Positions 5,113 to 62,475 of a stretch of 64,000 nt of DNA are shown in pieces. This DNA is from Bacillus sp. FJAT-42376 (GTDB lineage Bacteria; Bacillota; Bacilli; Bacillales; Bacillaceae), in the NCBI RefSeq assembly GCF_003816055.1, contig NZ_CP033906.1, positions 1,798,001 through 1,862,000 on the forward strand. Reading direction: 5' to 3'. Position 1 is the stretch's first letter; each line of letters opens with the position of its first letter. The translations under genes and the position numbers were made by a program. Below the pieces are notes generated by a model. It ran no database searches, was not told the origin of the DNA, and was given only the letters and a program-made list of their open reading frames with translations.

Positions 5113-5217
5113 AATGATGATCAGTGATTAACAGAAGTTCCGAATGGGTCTCTTTTTTTATGCATGTCTCAACCCGCATCCGGCAAACTAACAGTACCAA
5201 TTAGCGGCGGTGACGAA

Positions 5218-7347
5218 ATGAGATCTGTTTTTTCCATTTATACGAAGGACTTAAAACGAATAGCGCGGAACTGGGCAGCACTGATCATGGCAGGAGGACT
5301 GATTCTGCTGCCCAGCCTTTACGCATGGTTTAACATTAAAGCGTCATGGGATCCATACGGACACACGAATCAAATAAAAATCGCTGTTTCCAATCTGGAT
5401 GAAGGCGACAATTTAGAAGGAAAAAACGTAAACCTCGGAAACAAAATTGTCTCTAAGCTTCGGAACAACCATTCGTTTGACTGGCAGTTTGTCAGCAAAG
5501 AACAAGCGCTAAATGGAGTTCAGCATGGTGATTATTACGCACGTATGGAAATACCAAAGGACTTTTCCAAAAAAATTGGCACCGTCCTGTCCGATCAGCC
5601 GGTTCAGCCGGAAATTATCTATTCGGTAAATGAGAAAATCAATCCGATTGCTCCGAAAATAACGAACAAAGGGGCCACAACCATTATTGAACAGGTTAGC
5701 TCCAGTTTTGTAAAAGAAGCGACAAAAGCCATTTTTGCCGAATTCAATAAGCTTGGAATTAAACTGGAGGCTGAGCTTCCAGCCATCCAAAAACTCGAAT
5801 CGCTCATATTCCGGCTGGAACGGGAATTTCCAAGAATTGAAGAAATCCTCCTTACAGCATCGGATGATGTAGAAAAGTCCCAGAAGGTCGTTAAAGAAGC
5901 AAAGAAACAGCTTCCCATCGCAGCGGACCTGTCTTCCAAGGGAATAGAAGTAACAGAATCTGTTCAAAAAATTCTAAGCAAGAGTGAAGAGGCTTTTCAA
6001 AAGCTTCCTGAAAATCTGAAAAGTGACCTCGGTGTGCTGAATGACCAATTTACTTCGCTCGAGGGACTAGCAGAAGAGTGGAAGAATCCAGAAGCTGACC
6101 CCGCCAAAATAGAGGAAGCAAAAAAACGCCTGTCAGCTGCCGCTGCTTTGTCAGGAGCTCTTTCTGACGTGCTCGGGAGACTTAAAAGCCAGTCTGATTC
6201 TTCTGCTCTGGATGAACCGATCAGCAGGCTGAACGAAATCAGCAGCGATAGCCGTCAGCAGCTGGAATTATTGGATAACTTGTCCGGCATATCCGATACC
6301 GTCGAGCGGGGACAGCGGGCTGATGAACTGAAAAAAAGAATTTCGGATACAAAATCAAAAGCGGCAGAGCTGGACAGTCAATTTGAGACGGTCATCCAGC
6401 CGAACATCATGGACGCTCTGAAGGGTGCCCGAAAGTCTGCTGATGAAGCTGCCTCCGTGCTTTCAGCTGTCAGCAGCAGCATTCCGGACGTGGAGAAAAT
6501 CCTGAAAGATGCAGAAAAAGGCTTGTCACTCGGAGAAACGAAACTTGCCGATTTCAAAGAGGAAATGCCTCGCATTAAAAAGAAAATCGGTCAAATTGCC
6601 GGTGATATCCGGACGTTTAAAAAAACCGAGAATATCAATAATTTAATCGAATTGCTGAAAAACAACGCCGAAAAGGAAAGCAGTTTTTTCTCCGAGCCTG
6701 TCAAATTGAAGCAGGAGCGGATGTTTCCCATACCGAACTATGGATCTGCTCTGGCTCCGTTCTATACCGTTCTTTCTTTATGGGTAGGCTGCGTGCTGCT
6801 CGTTTCCCTGCTGTCAGTGGAAATTATGGAGGATCATCCGTACCGGAGCATTCACGTCTATTTTGGACGATTTTTAACCTTCTGGACCATCGGACTTTTT
6901 CAGGCACTGATCGCTGCCGCCGGAAACGTATTTCTGCTGGGGGTTTATGCAGTTCACCCAGGCTGGCTGATTCTCTTTTCATTGCTGATCAGCACCGTAT
7001 TCATGCTCATCGTCTATTCACTTGTTTCTGTATTCGGCAATATCGGCAAAGCCTTTGCCATCATTTTGCTTGTCTTGCAGCTGGCAGGTTCAGGAGGCAC
7101 GTTCCCCATACAGGTAACTCCGCCGTTTTTCCAGGCAATCAATCCATTTCTTCCTTTTACGTATGCCATCAGCCTATTGAGAGAAGCAATCGGAGGCATC
7201 CTGTGGGACATCGCCGCTGCGGATGTAGTGCGAATCATCTGTTACGGGGCGGGCGCCATTTTATTCGCAGTTTTTTTGAAAAAACCGATCAACCGGGCAT
7301 CAGAAGGATTCAGGAGGAAACTAAGTGAGTCGAAGCTGATCCACTAA
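5218..7347 (+). CDS. YhgE/Pip-family membrane protein (ABC-2-like)
   Basis: 709-residue protein of the YhgE/Pip family. N-terminal membrane segment near residues 17-37 carries the family sequence GGLILLPSLYAWFNIKASWD. A large extracytoplasmic, coiled-coil-rich region (about 40-500) follows, then four to six membrane segments typical of ABC-2 permeases. Relatives include the lactococcal phage-infection protein and the EsaA-like subunits of type VII secretion, but no ESX genes are near. The start at M19 of the longest frame (5218) matches family N-termini. The stop is at the edge of tandem array A. Function in Bacillus is unknown. Confidence 0.82.
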   Translation: MRSVFSIYTKDLKRIARNWAALIMAGGLILLPSLYAWFNIKASWDPYGHTNQIKIAVSNLDEGDNLEGKNVNLGNKIVSKLRNNHSFDWQFVSKEQALNGVQHGDYYARMEIPKDFSKKIGTVLSDQPVQPEIIYSVNEKINPIAPKITNKGATTIIEQVSSSFVKEATKAIFAEFNKLGIKLEAELPAIQKLESLIFRLEREFPRIEEILLTASDDVEKSQKVVKEAKKQLPIAADLSSKGIEVTESVQKILSKSEEAFQKLPENLKSDLGVLNDQFTSLEGLAEEWKNPEADPAKIEEAKKRLSAAAALSGALSDVLGRLKSQSDSSALDEPISRLNEISSDSRQQLELLDNLSGISDTVERGQRADELKKRISDTKSKAAELDSQFETVIQPNIMDALKGARKSADEAASVLSAVSSSIPDVEKILKDAEKGLSLGETKLADFKEEMPRIKKKIGQIAGDIRTFKKTENINNLIELLKNNAEKESSFFSEPVKLKQERMFPIPNYGSALAPFYTVLSLWVGCVLLVSLLSVEIMEDHPYRSIHVYFGRFLTFWTIGLFQALIAAAGNVFLLGVYAVHPGWLILFSLLISTVFMLIVYSLVSVFGNIGKAFAIILLVLQLAGSGGTFPIQVTPPFFQAINPFLPFTYAISLLREAIGGILWDIAAADVVRIICYGAGAILFAVFLKKPINRASEGFRRKLSESKLIH

Positions 7348-7367
7348 GGGGTGGCTTCGTTAAGCTG

Positions 7368-8430
7368 GGAACGAGAGGGAATTTGGATGGACAAATAAGC
7401 GTGGGGGATGGACAAATTCTGTCTTGGAACGGACAAATTAGGGTGGCGAATGGACAAATGAGATGGGGGAACGGACAGATAAATTCGGACGGACAAATTA
7501 GCGTAGGGAATGGACAAATCCTTTAAATTCTTTCTTGGAACGGACAAATCTGTGCGGCGAATGGACAAATAAAGTGGGGGAACGGACAGATAAAATCGAA
7601 TGGACAAATTAGCTTGAGGGATGGACAAATTCCTTTTTAGAACGGAAAAATCAGGGCGGCGATTGGACAAATAAGGTGGGGGAACGGACAGATAAAATCG
7701 AACGGACAAATAATCGTGGGGAATGGACAAATTCCGTTTTGGAACGGATAAATAAGGCCGGCGAATGGACAAATTGAGGGGGAAAACGGACAGATAATTT
7801 CGGATAGACAAATAAGCGTTGGGAATGGACAAATTCCGTTTTGGAACGGACAAATTATGCCGGCGAATGGACAAATTGAGTGGGAAAACGGACAGAAAAA
7901 TTCGGACGGACAAATTAGCTTGAGGGATGGACAAATTCCGTTTTGGAACGGAAAAATCAGGGCGGCGAATGGACAAATAAGGTGGAGGAACGGACAGATA
8001 AATTCGGACGGACAAATAATCGTGGGTAATGGACAAATTCCGTTTTGGAACGGACAAATAATGCCGGCGAATGGACAAATTGAGTGGGAAAACGGACAGA
8101 AAAATTCGGACGGACAAATAATCGTGGGTAATGGATAAATCCAGTCTTGGAACGGACAAATAATGCCGGCGAATGGACAAATTGAGTGGGAAAACGGACA
8201 GAAAAATTCGGACGGACAAATAATCGTGGGTAATGGATAAATCCAGTCTTGGAAAGGACAAATAATGCCGGCGAATGGACAAAGTGAGGGGGAAGACGGA
8301 CAGATAAATCCGGACGGACAAATTACCGTGTGGAATGGACAAATTCCGTTTTAGAACGGACAAATCAGGGCGGCGAATGGACAAATAAAGTGGGAAAACG
8401 GACAAATAATTTCAGACGGACATTCAACTC
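7368..8430. repeat. Array A: higher-order tandem repeat, 21-bp monomers in 102-bp units
   Basis: About 51 copies of a core GGACAAAT (variants GGACAGAT, GGATAAAT, GGAAAAAT) run from 7389 to 8418. Core spacing is 21, 21, 21, 21, 18 bp, repeated so that every unit is 102 bp; the 18-bp steps end at 7491, 7602, 7704, 7806, 7908, 8010, 8112, 8214, 8316 and 8418. The sole length change is a 9-bp insertion (30-bp step at 7512-7542). Each of the five monomers keeps its own filler sequence. The array fills the gap between two convergent genes. Open frames here (a 353-codon one on the minus strand from a TTG inside the repeat, and a 93-codon one on plus) lack ribosome sites. Confidence 0.95.
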
Positions 8431-8440
8431 CGTTCCATAA

Positions 8441-8469
8441 AAAAAGACCGCTCCCAGTCTGAGCAGTCT
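8441..8469 (-). terminator. Terminator of the GNAT-like gene
   Basis: Imperfect stem AGACCGCTC/GAGCAGTCT (one mismatch) overlapping the gene stop; on the minus strand it is followed by a run of T (plus-strand A-run at 8438-8445). Confidence 0.6.
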
Positions 8470-8987
8470 CATCCATTCCACACAATCTCTCCGCACTGGT
8501 TTTCACGGTCCAGCTCCACTTCAAACTGGTGTTTTTTATAAAAGTGGACAAGACGGTCCACGTGATCCCAATCCCGTTTGGCAATATCTCCGACGATAAA
8601 TGGGATGTTGTTTTGGCGGGCTTTTTGTTTTAAATAATTCATGCAGATGGACCCATATCCTTTGTTGGCAGGTCCTTTGATGTCACCAATTTTAATGGTT
8701 CCATCGGTTTTGTATGTCGCTTGGATGGAGAAGTCCCACATTCCCCTGTAGGAGGTTTCACAGTCATTGATCATGATTTTGCATGCATTCCCGTCGTCCA
8801 CAGCGTGCACAATCACCCATTTGTCTTCCTTTGACTGATCGATTCCGAGTACCTCGCCTTTTCCATTCTTCGCGATATCTTTTATATTGGCTTGCATCCT
8901 GTAAAGCTGCATTTCGAGTTCTTCTTTTTCCTCTAAAATTTCTTCTGCGTCCTTTTCCTGGTCAGGTCTGGTATCCGCAAGAAGCAT
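8469..8987 (-). CDS. GNAT-like acetyltransferase-fold protein
   Basis: 172-residue protein. The first 40 residues are acidic and helical (EEILEEKEELEMQLYRMQ). The C-terminal half looks like a GNAT fold: a Gly-containing acetyl-CoA loop (GPANKGYGSICMNYLKQKA) followed by the family-like segment HVDRLVHFYKKHQFEVELD. Substrate unknown. The start at 8987 is chosen for AAGGAGG 9 bases upstream rather than the longer frame to 9035. It is transcribed toward array A and ends in its own terminator. The GNAT call is by fold pattern and could be wrong at the level of activity. Confidence 0.65.
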   Translation of the reverse strand: MLLADTRPDQEKDAEEILEEKEELEMQLYRMQANIKDIAKNGKGEVLGIDQSKEDKWVIVHAVDDGNACKIMINDCETSYRGMWDFSIQATYKTDGTIKIGDIKGPANKGYGSICMNYLKQKARQNNIPFIVGDIAKRDWDHVDRLVHFYKKHQFEVELDRENQCGEIVWNG

Positions 8988-9226
8988 GATATGCGCCCTC
9001 CTTTTTAAATGAAAATAAAACCGTTCAGCACACACAATTTGATATTTTACAAGAGTTTGGATGGAAATTCAAATGGTATGCAATCAAGATTTCATGCATA
9101 AAAAACCTATAAGGGACAAGGCTTAAGCCGGATTTCTGTGTGAATGAACAGAGTGAATTTGAAGGATTTGGAAGAGGGAAAATCGAATATATAGAACAAA
9201 GAGAGAGGCAGAGGGGGGACTGTGGG

Positions 9227-17599: not shown

Positions 17600-17632
17600 A
17601 GGGAGGGAATAGCGGGCAGAACCGCTCTGGTT

Positions 17633-18165
17633 GGACAAATAGTATGAAACGGCTAAATTACGTTCGTGATCGGCTTGATCAAGACGAGTAACGGACAAGC
17701 AGGCAGGAACGCACAAATAACAAGCGGGATAGACCTAAAAACGGAACGGCAAAATTGTGTTCAAGTTTGGCTGAATAAAGTCCAGGAACGGCTTAATAGG
17801 CCGGCAGATTGGACAAATAATGTGCGCGATTGGACAGAAAAAATGGAATGGACAAATTCCGTTTTCTATCGGCTAAATAAAGTCCAGGAACGGCTTAATA
17901 GGCCGGCAGATTGGACAAATAATGTGCGCGATTGGACAGAAAAAATGGAATGGACAAATTCCGTTTTCTATCGGCTAAATAAAGTCCAGGAACGGCTAAA
18001 TAGGCCGGCGGGATGGACAAATAACGTGTGTGATTGGACAGAAAAATGGAATGGACAAATTCCGTTTTCTATCGGCCAAATAAAGTCCAGGAACAGCGAA
18101 AAAAGCCGGAGGGATGGACAAATAACGTTCGTGATTGGACAGAAAAAACAAACGGACAAATTTTA
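17633..18165. repeat. Array B: second 21/18-bp higher-order tandem repeat
   Basis: About 27 cores from 17633 to 18154. In the regular part (17769-18154) spacing is 21, 21, 21, 21, 18 bp as in array A, giving 102-bp units. Cores are GGACAAAT, GGCTAAAT, GGCTTAAT and GGACAGAA. Two monomers share wording with array A (GGACAAATTCCGTTTT and the 18-bp GGACAGAAAAA monomer). Steps of 17 bp at 18036-18053 and 18137-18154 break any reading frame, so the 166-codon open frame on plus (17666-18166) is not convincing as a gene. The 700-bp gap between the peptidase and ispA holds nothing else clear. Confidence 0.92.
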
Positions 18166-22655: not shown

Positions 22656-22717
22656 TGCTTGCATTCGAACTTTGCTTACATGACCATGCTGGAGTGCAGG
22701 AAGCTGCAGCGGTAGAA

Positions 22718-22835
22718 TTCAGCAATTAACGTTGAAAAGTCAGCAATTAACGGCAAAAAGTCAGCAATTAACGTTGAGAAGTCAGCAATTAACGGCAAAA
22801 AGTCAGCAATTCTCAGTCCGAGGTCAGCAATTGCA
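22718..22835. repeat. Array C: six 21-bp repeats with core CAGCAATT
   Basis: CAGCAATT occurs at 22720, 22741, 22762, 22783, 22804 and 22825, an exact 21-bp pitch. Middle monomers alternate between GTTGAAAAG-like and GGCAAAAAG-like fillers, giving a 42-bp dimer. The core differs from arrays A and B. On the minus strand it would encode a repeated LIADFxx heptad, but that frame has no ribosome site. Confidence 0.9.
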
Positions 22836-22860: not shown

Positions 22861-23250
22861 GCGCCCTCCGCTTTTCTTGTTGTCGAGCTCCGGGCGCTAG
22901 CGCTTCGGCCGCTTCGCTGGTCCTGTCAAAGTCAAAATACGACTTTGTCAGTTCCAGCTCCACCGTCTCTCAGCGCTAAGCAAGCACCCTCCGCTTTTCT
23001 AGTTGTCCAGCTCCGGCGGCTAACCTCTCGAGGTCATAAGCCACTCACCCTCCGGAAGGAAAAAGCGCCTTCCTCCGGATGATTGTCTTATGCTTGTCGA
23101 GGATAAGCAAGCCGCCTCCGCTTTTCTAGTTGTCCAGCTCCGGGCGCTAGCGCTTCGGCCGCTTCGCTGGCCCTGTCAAAGTCAAAGAGCGACTTTGTCA
23201 GTTCCAGCTCCACCGTCTCTCAGCGCTAATCAAGCGCCCTCCGCTTTTCT
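22861..23250. repeat. Tandem stack of about 124-bp dispersed-repeat units
   Basis: Units begin near 22864, 22987, 23114 and 23238 with CCTCCGCTTTTCT and continue TTGTCCAGCTCC. Units 1 and 3 are nearly identical over 120 bp; unit 2 diverges after the first third; unit 4 is only a start, ending at the stop codon of the next gene. Units 1 and 3 hold a stem CAAAGTC/GACTTTG with a changed loop but unchanged stem; unit 2 contains CATAAG/CTTATG and GGAAGG/CCTTCC pairs. This GC-rich family is, from memory, widespread in Bacillaceae intergenic regions. Confidence 0.85.
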
Positions 23251-36935: not shown

Positions 36936-36956
36936 CAATGTGTGAACTGAATAGAT

Positions 36957-37113
36957 TCTTCGTTAGGTGAGGCTCCTGTGTGGAGATATGCTGCTGCCCA
37001 AAAATGTCCAAAGACGCCAATGGGTCAACAGGAATCATCGACTTAAGGTGATTTTTAACGCAGCTGGACATCGTCCTATGCTGCACAGTGCTAAAGCTCT
37101 ACGATGGAAGAAT
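36957..37113 (+). ncRNA. M-box (ykoK) magnesium riboswitch
   Basis: Highly conserved words in order: TTCGTTAGGTGAGGCTCC, GGAGATATGCTGCTGCCCAA, AATGTCCAAAGACGCCAATG, GGTCAACAGGAATCATCGAC, TTAAGGTGATTTTTAACGCA, GCTAAAGCTCTACGATGGAA. It precedes a terminator and mgtE: magnesium should fold the sensor and stop transcription. Confidence 0.97.
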
Positions 37114-37128
37114 GGAAAGCTTGTTTAT

Positions 37129-53394: not shown

Positions 53395-53420
53395 AAGGGT
53401 AACAAAATAGTATTCTCTCT

Positions 53421-53541
53421 CGTCAAAGGGGAGTAGCCGGTCAGGTGCCTGCACCTGAAAACAAAGTCGTCAATTCATGGATGATATCCATCGGCTTTGT
53501 TGACATGACTCAGTACATACATGTTCAGCAAGACCTTTGCC
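53421..53541 (+). ncRNA. yybP-ykoY manganese riboswitch
   Basis: Conserved GTCAAAGGGGAGTAGC at the 5' side and CATGACTCAGTACATACATG then AGCAAGACCTTTGCC at the 3' side are the hallmark words of the yybP-ykoY motif, in front of its namesake gene. Manganese binding should prevent the following terminator from forming and switch the gene on. Confidence 0.92.
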
Positions 53542-59793: not shown

Positions 59794-60672
59794 ATGTTTA
59801 AACGAATTGGATTGTTCATATTAACCAACATCCTTGTTATCACGACGATTGGGATTGTTTTATCCATTTTAGGCGTTGGTAATTATATGACTGCATCTGG
59901 TGGAATCGATCTCGTTACCTTGCTTGCATTCAGTGCAGTTGTAGGTTTTACCGGATCATTATTCTCCCTGGCGATTTCCCGCTGGATGGCGAAAATGATG
60001 ATGGGGGTTCAAGTATTAAAGCCTGAAGATAATCTTTCACCAATTGAAAGAGATTTAGTCAACCGCGTTCACGCACTTGCAAGGACTGCCGGTATGAGAG
60101 TGATGCCTGAAGTGGGAATTTACCGCTCGCCGGAGGTTAATGCATTTGCTACAGGGCCTTCCAAAAACCGTTCTTTAGTTGCGGTTTCAACCGGATTGCT
60201 TGAGGAGATGGATGAAGATGCCATCGACGGTGTGCTTGCCCATGAGATTGCCCATATTGTAAATGGCGACATGGTAACCATGACTCTTCTGCAAGGAATT
60301 GTCAATACATTCGTTGTATTTCTTGCAAGAATTGCTGCCTGGGCCGTATCAAGATTTGTACGCGAAGAGCTTGCAGGGGTTGTTCATTTCATTGCCATTC
60401 TTGTATTCCAAATTCTATTCTCCATTTTAGGAAGCCTTGTTGTATTCGGATTCTCGCGTTACCGCGAATACCACGCAGACCGTGGAGGCGCTGATTTTGC
60501 CGGCAAGGATAAAATGATCCATGCTTTACGAAGCCTGCAGAACTATACACAGCGCACTAGAGATGATGACACGTCTTTAGCAACTTTAAAAATCAACAGC
60601 AAACGCAAACGTTCCCTGTTTTCAACGCATCCTGATCTTCAGGACCGGATTGCAAGACTGGAACAGCGATAA
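59794..60672 (+). CDS. htpX: Membrane zinc metalloprotease HtpX
   Basis: 292-residue M48 protease for membrane protein quality control. Membrane segments near residues 5-25 and 38-60 and two more after the active site; zinc site HEIAH at 150-154 with a downstream Glu in [13 protein letters not shown]. Equivalent to B. subtilis YkrL. Followed by a strong terminator. Confidence 0.95.
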
Positions 60673-60676
60673 TAGG

Positions 60677-60712
60677 AAAACCGGCCGTATATGCAACGGC
60701 CGGTTTTTTTAT
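60677..60712. terminator. Terminator of htpX (bidirectional)
   Basis: Perfect AAAACCGGCCGT/ACGGCCGGTTTT stem, T-run after and A-run before. Confidence 0.9.
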
Positions 60713-60753
60713 GATGGCTGGAACGTGTGCTTTCTGAAGCATCCGTTCTGTTG

Positions 60754-62475
60754 TCAAATCTTATAGGATGAGAATGAATCACGAAACTCTTTTGACAGTG
60801 ATGCGAGAACCTGAGAGGAATGAAGCATCTCCTGCATAACTGCATTTTGCTCTTGTGTAGTGGCGGCAATATGTTCAATGTTCCCGTTCGTCATTCTGGT
60901 AATGTGTTCAATGTGACTGGTCGCCTGATTGAGTACGTCCATTTGTCCGGTAACATACATCACTGCTTTTTCCACCTGCTCGCTCTTTGCCTCAAGCTGT
61001 CCGATGTGGCTTGAGATCACTTTAAAGGATTCGTCCACTTCCAGCACGAGTTCGTTTCCTTTCATGATGGCTGCAGAGCTTTGCTTCATTAGCCTCGATG
61101 CAGCCTCTGTTTCGTGCTGAGTGGATTGGAGGATATTCTGGATGTCGCCGGCTGCTCCTGCTGTCTGTTCAGCGAGTTTTCTTACTTCAGAAGCAACAAC
61201 ACCAAATCCTTTTCCGTGTTCGCCGGCTCTGGCAGCCTCGATAGCCGCATTCAATGCAAGCAGGTTCGTCTGCTCGGAAATATTCGTAATAAGTCCGGCA
61301 ATGGCGGTGATGGTTTCAGATTTTTGTGCAAGCGTTTGTATGGTTTGGTCAAGGCGGTCAACATGTTCCAGTATCGATTCCATTTGAACCATAACATCCT
61401 CAGCCTGGGTTTTTCCTTCCAGGATTTTATGAGCGGAGGCCCGGCTCAGGCTGCTTGCTTCTTTTGTTTCAGCTGCAGCCAGATTCAGCTGAGAAGAGAT
61501 GGTTTGCGCGGAACCGGCAGCCTGATGGGTAGACTGCAGCTGCTGATCAGAACCTGAGGCGAGTTCAAGAATGGACTGCGTGATTTGCTCCGTTCCATCG
61601 GAAGTCGCCACTGTATTTTCCTTTAAATGTCCTGACATGTTTCTTACTTTTTCTGAAAGAGCAAATATATCTTGGATGGATTGTTTAAGTTCGGCTTTCA
61701 GACTGTTCATTGCGTTCGCGATATCAGCCGTTTCATCTTTTGAGCGAAAGTGAAGATCGTCAACTAGAAGATTGCCGCTTGCCAGTTCTTTGCACATATG
61801 AACTGCCAGGGCCAGCTGTTTACGGATTCTTCTGCTGACAAAAAAGAGAAGAAGAGCCGACAGAAGAATGGAGACAGCAATAAATCCTGATGATAAAAGG
61901 ATCCGGTTATTTGATGTTTGTTCGGTCTGCGCAATCAGCTCAGCCCGGTCTTCTGCAAGGAGCTTCTCCAGAGCGGATAATTTTTCACTGCTTACATCCC
62001 GGATAACGGCTGCCCGGTTTTGAAGTTCAATTTGTTTTAAAGGATCGAGTGTTCCTCCATTGCTTAAAACGGAGTTTACCTCTGGTTTTATTCTTGTCTC
62101 AAAGAATTTGTCGAGCTCATCATTCATCGTTTGAGCCGCATTAAGCAGCAGAAGCTGATCTTGTTTCGACATATTCCTTTTAAGCTCGGCTAAAGTCTGG
62201 TTCATTTTTTTTACTTGATCTTTGTAGGCGCTCTCATTTTCAGGTGCTGCTTTTGTAATGTAATCGGTGATGACGATGTACTTTTGCTTGAAAATTTCAG
62301 AGGCTGAGGAAACCTTGAGAGCGTCGTTTGCTTTTTGTTCTGTTGTACTGATCGTTTTAAGGGTGGATGACAAGGAAAATAAAATAAAAAGGAAGGCAAT
62401 AATAATAAGGGAGAGACAAGCATAAAAAACTAGTCCATATTTACGGCCGATTGAAGATTTACGTTTAAATTGCAT
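60754..62475 (-). CDS. Methyl-accepting chemotaxis protein
   Basis: 573-residue receptor: membrane segment near residues 13-35, a helical extracellular sensor to about 185, membrane segment near 188-210, HAMP (about 211-270), signalling domain with tip [20 protein letters not shown]. Third chemoreceptor of the window, inserted between htpX and ktrD relative to B. subtilis. Ligand unknown; ribosome site weak (GGGG 11 bases upstream). Confidence 0.88.

Follow-up and report, generated by a model that had tools for sequence, protein, structure and literature searches.

Behind a membrane protein gene of Bacillus sp. FJAT-42376 lies about one kilobase of strictly ordered tandem repeats, designated array A, and the question raised by this locus is whether such DNA is a gene, a product of slippage, a structural, RNA-level or mobile element, or a row of sites for a protein. 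Array A was analysed within a 64-kb window (the whole stretch of DNA under study), the FJAT-42376 chromosome of 4.25 Mb and genomes of relatives. The array is real and specific, and very probably not coding. It is most likely an amplified docking array bound by a putative protein, as judged from sequence comparisons.

Organisation of array A

The features of the window considered below are as follows.
5164..7347, + strand: upstream co-oriented gene for an ABC-2/YhgE-type membrane protein (PF12698)
7380..8425, + strand: array A, GGACAAAT-type cores in a 102-bp unit (Tandem Repeats Finder, core grid)
7512..7541, + strand: the sole 30-bp monomer of array A, otherwise 21 bp, with a 9-bp insertion (core grid)
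7535..8350, + strand: eight in-register 102-bp units of array A, the basis of the first substitution test
7344..8405, - strand: stop-free 353-aa frame over array A, judged not to be a gene
8469..9035, - strand: convergent gene, no Pfam match at E 1e-4 (8469-8999)
17630..18162, + strand: array B, GGAC/GGCTAAAT cores in 102-bp units, same family as array A
22716..22832, + strand: array C, 21-bp monomers with the unrelated core TCAGCAATTAACG

The core grid and Tandem Repeats Finder placed the body of array A at 7380-8425, with the + strand being the purine-rich one, so that the location given in the earlier note was correct. The grid (7389-8418) comprised 51 cores, 34 of them exact copies of GGACAAAT and 17 variants, and as GGACAAAT or its complement occurred just four times elsewhere in the window outside arrays A and B, such a grid is not a product of chance. 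The 50 steps between cores measured 21 bp in 39 cases and 18 bp in 10, and a single step of 30 bp was due to the 9-bp insertion in the monomer beginning at 7512. The spacing was thus exact apart from this insertion, as had been noticed from the sequence. Tandem Repeats Finder reported a period of 102 (8.7 copies, 7535-8422) and a period of 306 (7380-8422). The higher-order unit of 102 bp corresponded to four monomers of 21 bp and one of 18 bp, each of the five monomers having its own filler, as noted earlier, and the fillers were mostly unchanged from one 102-bp copy to the next, which supports the earlier view that the latest amplification acted on the 102-bp unit.

Array A begins 32 bp past the stop codon of the YhgE-type gene, and a terminator-like hairpin of the minus strand was seen by eye between the array and the convergent gene (about 8439-8469). 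The flanking gene pair was kept in two relatives, G073 and G077, with 75% and 90-91% protein identity, respectively. In these genomes (loci L116 and L115) an additional acetyltransferase-like reading frame, identified by eye, was present between the flanking genes; this frame was missing in FJAT-42376, where array A stands instead. No core cluster was detected at the orthologous locus of either relative; however, one to three decayed monomers were recognised by eye right behind the stop of the upstream gene. The site probably predates the array, and the amplification (or retention) at this locus is probably specific to the FJAT-42376 lineage.

In other parts of the window, an M-box magnesium riboswitch (36952-37116) and a weak match to the yybP-ykoY manganese riboswitch (53416-53526) were found.

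The array family and arrays with other cores

A BLAST search with three units of array A revealed related arrays at about 60, 1042-1044, 1257, 1776, 1805, 1816, 2064 and 2151-2153 kb of the chromosome. The 29 chromosomal matches all had + orientation and fell within the range from 60 kb to 2.153 Mb, the other 2.1 Mb having none. A pattern of two GGACAAAT cores was present in 6 of 80 genomes of the family, including four of the six in the FJAT-42376 genus, one of which was Metabacillus mangrovi KCTC 33872, and two genomes outside it with a single match each. It was found in none of the 44 genomes of genus g2. Elsewhere in the order, beyond this genus, the pattern occurred in 23 of 395 genomes against 17 for the reversed-pattern control; as these counts barely exceed the control, the case across genera rests on aligned clusters and not on counts.

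The 102-bp period was detected in all 20 loci fetched around the matches, some of which had further periods such as 81, 141, 183 and 285. Consensus spacings of 21, 21, 21, 21 and 18 bp, in some order, were observed in 22 of 23 analysable arrays from four species, with differing fillers. The drift of spacing in other copies, named in the earlier note as an argument against the strict repeat, was not seen, the same spacing being found in other loci and species. The extended core was approximately AACGGMYARAWWA, its central eight bases being preset by the search expression, followed by about eight variable G-rich bases. In array B, two steps were one base short (17 bp). Two adjacent 102-bp arrays with different cores and opposite purine orientation were noticed in FJAT-42376 at 60547-61363 (L073).

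Arrays with different cores were surveyed in 464 kb of the FJAT-42376 genome and 400 kb from each of two relatives, and they too had a pitch of 20-21 bp. About a dozen arrays with a pitch of 20-21 bp (or 41 bp) were present in the 464 kb of FJAT-42376, and so the rarity claimed for arrays of this kind calls for correction. Units of 102 bp including an 18-bp monomer were found with other cores at 1707313 in FJAT-42376 (GGCAGGAAAA) and at 1452190 in G077 (GGCTGGAAAA), while the array with core GTCCGATA at G077:C1:1309557-1310533 (L151) had 103-bp units (four times 21 plus 19 bp) and kept the five-monomer plan; monomers of the other-core arrays were delimited by eye from the consensus. The pitch was 20 bp for core ATAGCCGATATA and 21 bp for core ACGGGCAAATT. 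Array C lies about 70 bp behind a terminator-like hairpin seen by eye. A GC-rich repeat-like sequence of the CCAGCTCCGGCG type at about 22870-23040 of the window resembled, by eye, the tandem at 2131206-2132308 of FJAT-42376.

A scan for any 8-mer occurring three times running with a constant spacing of between 12 and 45 bp gave mostly 20-21 and 40-42 bp in the FJAT-42376 genus, Rossellomorea and B. pakistanensis, with one or few loci at 12, 13, 19, 25, 28, 29 and 45 bp in the same three groups. In 200 kb of a genus-g2 genome no loci were found, and 200 kb of a genus-g4 genome contained two, at 15 and 19 bp. The TGCCAGGCA arrays, with steps of 13 and 28 bp, fell outside the two-turn rule; TGCCAGGCA-like arrays of 41/42 bp with uneven steps were noticed at G073:C1 1517167-1519512 and 1640557-1641056 and at 1560760 and 1686999 in G077.

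A gene for a 395-aa transposase, of the IS256 type by eye, was located within or beside the array at 1041583-1043894 of FJAT-42376 (L074, 5584-7895). The same gene also adjoined the arrays at FJAT-42376 2152206, G073 1429331 and G073 1517167-1519512, so that this element seems to land in arrays preferentially or to be tolerated there.

Short single-copy elements in B. pakistanensis and Rossellomorea

The genomes of B. pakistanensis DSM 24834 and Rossellomorea sp. BNER contained the core in short clusters, with three to four copies at a 21-bp spacing. Their steps were of exactly 21 bp in 30 of 30 cases in B. pakistanensis and 30 of 32 in Rossellomorea, despite fillers that were just 36% and 31% alike, respectively. 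The core scan required three cores at a pitch of 18-21 bp; 30 loci were used from the 80 listed of at least 117 stretches, and one Neobacillus locus that looked like a coding repeat was left out of the element count.

The clusters of both species shared a leader, approximately GTCGAAYGGTCAATATAT. Allowing two mismatches at most, it occurred 41 times in B. pakistanensis and 42 times in Rossellomorea, against 0-2 occurrences per genome for the reversed pattern. Loci ascertained via the leader (L309-L337) included several that were also found by the core scan. Among 40 leader-bearing elements, 37 had at least three cores and one had none and bore another core type; 92 of their 105 core steps were exactly 21 bp. 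Four genomes of the FJAT-42376 genus contained at most one match to the leader, at two mismatches, and inspection by eye revealed no leader ahead of the GGMYAAAT arrays of this genus. We assume that the leader (TGTCGAA) resembles a Spo0A box; no match for this likeness was found in the portions of the literature that were searched. Each of the 20-bp arrays with core AGCCGATATA or a near variant, located in three species (FJAT-42376 1901570, G077 1474907 and G073 1429331), had TGTCGAAT in front, which resembles the Rossellomorea leader and presumably also a Spo0A box.

Constraint on the cores

The arrays set comprised 24 arrays with at least six GGMYAAAT cores, 23 of which were used to compare successive 102-bp units. 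Registers were taken from the consensus of each array, so that single copies were not conditioned on an intact core. Within the 21-mers, 147 of 2298 core sites differed (6.4%) in comparison with 586 of 3659 filler sites (16.0%), and the core rate was below the filler rate in 22 of 23 arrays (sign test p 6e-6). An independent test was provided by the short elements of the other genera, of which ten orthologous clusters gave changes at 2/296 core, 9/180 leader and 105/504 filler positions, with 296/1124 in the upstream and 163/1253 in the downstream flanks; the core scan had supplied one or both members of four of the ten pairs. In the six pairs of which both members were found via the leader, the core had 0/176 changes and the filler 52/301 (p 8e-12). 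In single orthologous elements, which have no array in which they could be homogenised, each core is itself under constraint. The sequences thus have constant cores between drifting fillers.

These rates bear directly on the idea that array A is a neutral satellite, a product of slippage in which the cores seem constant through recent duplication or gene conversion. Tandem amplification by steps of 102, 81 and 183 bp was evident, and the presence of just a few decayed monomers at the orthologous place in two relatives would fit such an origin. However, in the same duplicated units the cores changed 2.5 times more slowly than the fillers, the substitution rate was uneven along the unit (.064 for the core and.160 for the filler), and the difference persisted in orthologous elements that are not tandem. 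A neutral satellite is strongly disfavoured and is considered improbable. A gene on the minus strand, encoding a heptad-repeat protein (L-S/A-V/I-x-x-x-N), was suggested by the fact that monomers of the array family are multiples of 3 bp, and across 24 arrays the 5139 codons of the minus LSV-type frame included only 24 stops, in comparison with 3.9-7.3% in the other five frames. Nevertheless, the 21-bp fillers had no shortage of stops in this frame (11 observed, 7.6 expected from base composition), whereas two other frames did (6 vs 24.3 and 10 vs 28.2). Difference rates by phase were nearly equal (.113/.124/.124), and of 1075 changes between successive 102-bp copies 319 were synonymous vs 313.8 expected. 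The + phase 0 frame, into which the GGA/GGC and CAA/CAG variants of the core fall, had a synonymous excess (321 vs 257), yet it was full of stops (211/5139). Moreover, steps off by one base occur, families with a pitch of 20, 41 or 103 exist, no homologue was found at E 1e-3 among 7999 scored candidates, and the 353-aa frame of array A starts within the repeat, at TTG. A coding gene, named in the earlier note as what would refute the repeat, was not supported by these tests, and a protein gene is regarded as very unlikely.

Position and orientation relative to genes

Sixty-four elements and arrays were placed relative to genes by ORF calls, with the core strand taken as sense. The 40 short elements comprised 19 in codirectional gaps co-oriented with the genes (++), 13 in convergent gaps (+-), three in codirectional gaps in the opposite orientation (--), two in divergent gaps (-+) and three with one neighbour not called. 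The corresponding numbers for the 24 arrays were 12, 8, 3 and 1; two of these entries derive from a single array that an IS256-type element has cut in two, which makes one -- entry an artefact. Altogether 37 gaps were codirectional, 21 convergent and three divergent (3/61 of the gaps with both neighbours called). In codirectional gaps, the core followed the orientation of the upstream gene in 31 of 37 cases and opposed it in six (p 4e-5). Array A does fill a gap between convergent genes, as had been reported, but this does not characterise the family, since only 8 of the 24 classified arrays of its genus lie in such gaps.

The short elements were located at a median of about 90 bp behind a co-oriented stop codon. 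A terminator-like hairpin of the sense strand was found upstream in 22 of 64 cases and downstream in one, and for the other strand the numbers were 11/64 and 7/64, respectively. Upstream genes (10 of 19 scanned) were functionally unrelated and encoded PTS, LysM/GH18, response regulator, beta-lactamase-family, peptidase and other proteins.

In the sampled stretches of FJAT-42376 the arrays were mostly purine-rich on the + strand, which would also suit a rule of replication orientation. Several convergent arrays elsewhere had the orientation of the upstream gene, against GC skew, and the arrays at FJAT-42376 60547 and G075 548273 followed neither. A rule of gene orientation is preferred, although the choice is not settled.

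DNA curvature, RNA and mobile element readings

The earlier note proposed that AAAT tracts at a 21-bp pitch fall on one face of the helix and could curve the DNA. Curvature computed from wedge parameters for 9 of the 24 arrays gave z values from -3.3 to +2.0 relative to shuffled sequences, and the values of 21 short elements were no different from those of their shuffles; intrinsic curvature was not supported. In addition, the recurring 18-bp monomers interrupt the 21-bp phase.

The location behind genes in a fixed orientation would equally suit an element acting in RNA, with regularly spaced protein sites carried by a read-through transcript or by a pyrimidine-rich antisense transcript. The antisense strand of array A has C>G (the + strand contains C 0.14 and G 0.30), and a pyrimidine-rich C>G transcript could load Rho. 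However, the cores in 31 short elements were as accessible as in filler-shuffled controls, with mean z values of 0.00 and -0.19 for the two strands, folding energy in the same elements did not differ from these controls, neither ten loci nor array A had an Rfam match at gathering score, and a fixed 21-nt pitch is explained more easily in duplex DNA. An RNA-level element is considered unlikely. A similarly low chance is given to an element linked to supercoiling, like the BIMEs of E. coli, which would recruit topoisomerase or a nucleoid protein to the ends of transcription units: it would account for the scarcity of divergent gaps and for the two-turn pitch, but a nearly invariant 8-bp core is more specific than expected for gyrase, and the curvature was ordinary.

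The cores might also be solo ends of a Tn7/Mu-like transposon, with monomers as transposase sites, either relics or kept by the host for transposition immunity. Ends of Tn7 and type V-K CAST elements carry TnsB-type sites about 20-22 bp apart with a leading TGT, and the elements described here are similar in core, spacing and leading TGT and are dispersed, with about 41 copies per genome. In contrast to such ends, they had no consistent second inverted end in loci of about 2-8 kb, where the search at up to four mismatches returned scattered weak or self-overlapping matches only. Mu-transpos_C (PF09299) was not found in 8 of 10 genomes searched, among them FJAT-42376 and both leader-rich ones, and the two hits obtained had no core cluster in the 18 kb read around each. 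Array A had no match among 72,556 plasmid records or on phages at E 1e-5 (21 viral-contig loci being left out). A transposon end is regarded as quite improbable.

Coding, curvature, RNA structure or accessibility, an Rfam family, a transposon end and a plasmid or phage origin were all unsupported by the tests run.

A putative phased protein-docking element

The family, its pitch, the constraint on its cores, its position and its orientation are established at the level of sequence. As an explanation, we give about even chances to the reading that array A is the amplified form of a dispersed, phased protein-docking element at 3' ends, functioning as a roadblock or insulator between transcription units. 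Such an element would comprise some five copies of a recognition core of 8-10 bp spaced by 21 bp (two helical turns), so that bound protein molecules might lie on one face of the helix, and it would follow directly on the 3' end of a transcription unit, in the same orientation as that unit. It would exist in single copy in Rossellomorea and B. pakistanensis, as a conserved leader and usually three to four cores, while in the FJAT-42376 genus a five-core unit (4x21+18=102 bp) would have been tandemly amplified at many loci. A putative DNA-binding protein, or a few paralogues, may bind these sites cooperatively, and the occupied array could act as a fail-safe transcription roadblock or as an insulator between adjoining units. 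The existence of other core families suggests perhaps a few paralogous proteins. Phased cooperative binding, as proposed from the sequence of array A, is putative but agrees with both the constraint on the cores and their strict pitch.

Several observations do not agree well with the docking element. The 18-bp monomer disrupts the 21-bp phase in units of the FJAT-42376 genus, and several unrelated cores at one pitch require several proteins or a broader rule. The lack of a visible leader before GGMYAAAT arrays, the patchy distribution, the ordinary curvature and the hairpins of the opposite strand also count against it. A wider reading, held tentatively and as the less probable one, is that of a Bacillaceae superfamily of post-terminator elements, in which oriented phased clusters of a core peculiar to each locus family, under purifying selection, would serve putative binders as roadblocks or insulators, some genera inflating the clusters to kilobase arrays and the architecture recurring with unrelated cores.

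If bound by protein, the clusters would represent a device of Bacillaceae dedicated to transcription-unit ends, with sites readable from sequence and a factor that could be fished with a short DNA probe. They would also be a bacterial case of satellite-like higher-order DNA with a measurably constrained recognition core, and this measurable constraint makes the reason for array inflation testable.

Comparison with known systems

No description of arrays like A was found in the literature searched, which comprised titles and the beginnings of abstracts, mostly outside subscription journals. In CRISPR arrays, which are accompanied by cas genes, unique spacers separate repeats of some 23-47 bp, whereas array A has an 8-bp core and fillers that recur every 102 bp. 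Ordinary bacterial minisatellites (VNTRs) are likewise tandem and gain or lose whole units, but the array family differs in its core constraint, its 4x21+18 order at many loci and its single-copy orthologues. Plasmid iterons and centromere-like arrays place several direct recognition sites in succession at intervals of about two helical turns; unlike these, the elements described here are chromosomal, with tens of dispersed copies behind genes.

The REP/BIME sequences of enterobacteria are intergenic repeats scattered over the genome at the 3' ends of transcription units; they avoid divergent promoters and are sometimes arrayed. The elements are similarly extragenic, located at 3' ends and seldom in divergent gaps (3/64), but REP units are palindromic, in contrast to direct cores at a 21-bp pitch with the orientation of the upstream gene and free fillers. 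Sal-box/TTF-I terminator arrays of eukaryotic rDNA consist of repeated oriented protein sites past a transcription unit, for which a roadblock has been proposed. The putative sites described here are also repeated 3' of a transcription unit in a fixed orientation, although they are bacterial, lie beside ordinary genes and have a binder that is putative. The related known kinds are thus dispersed 3'-end elements and arrays of phased sites, although array A may belong to a new kind.
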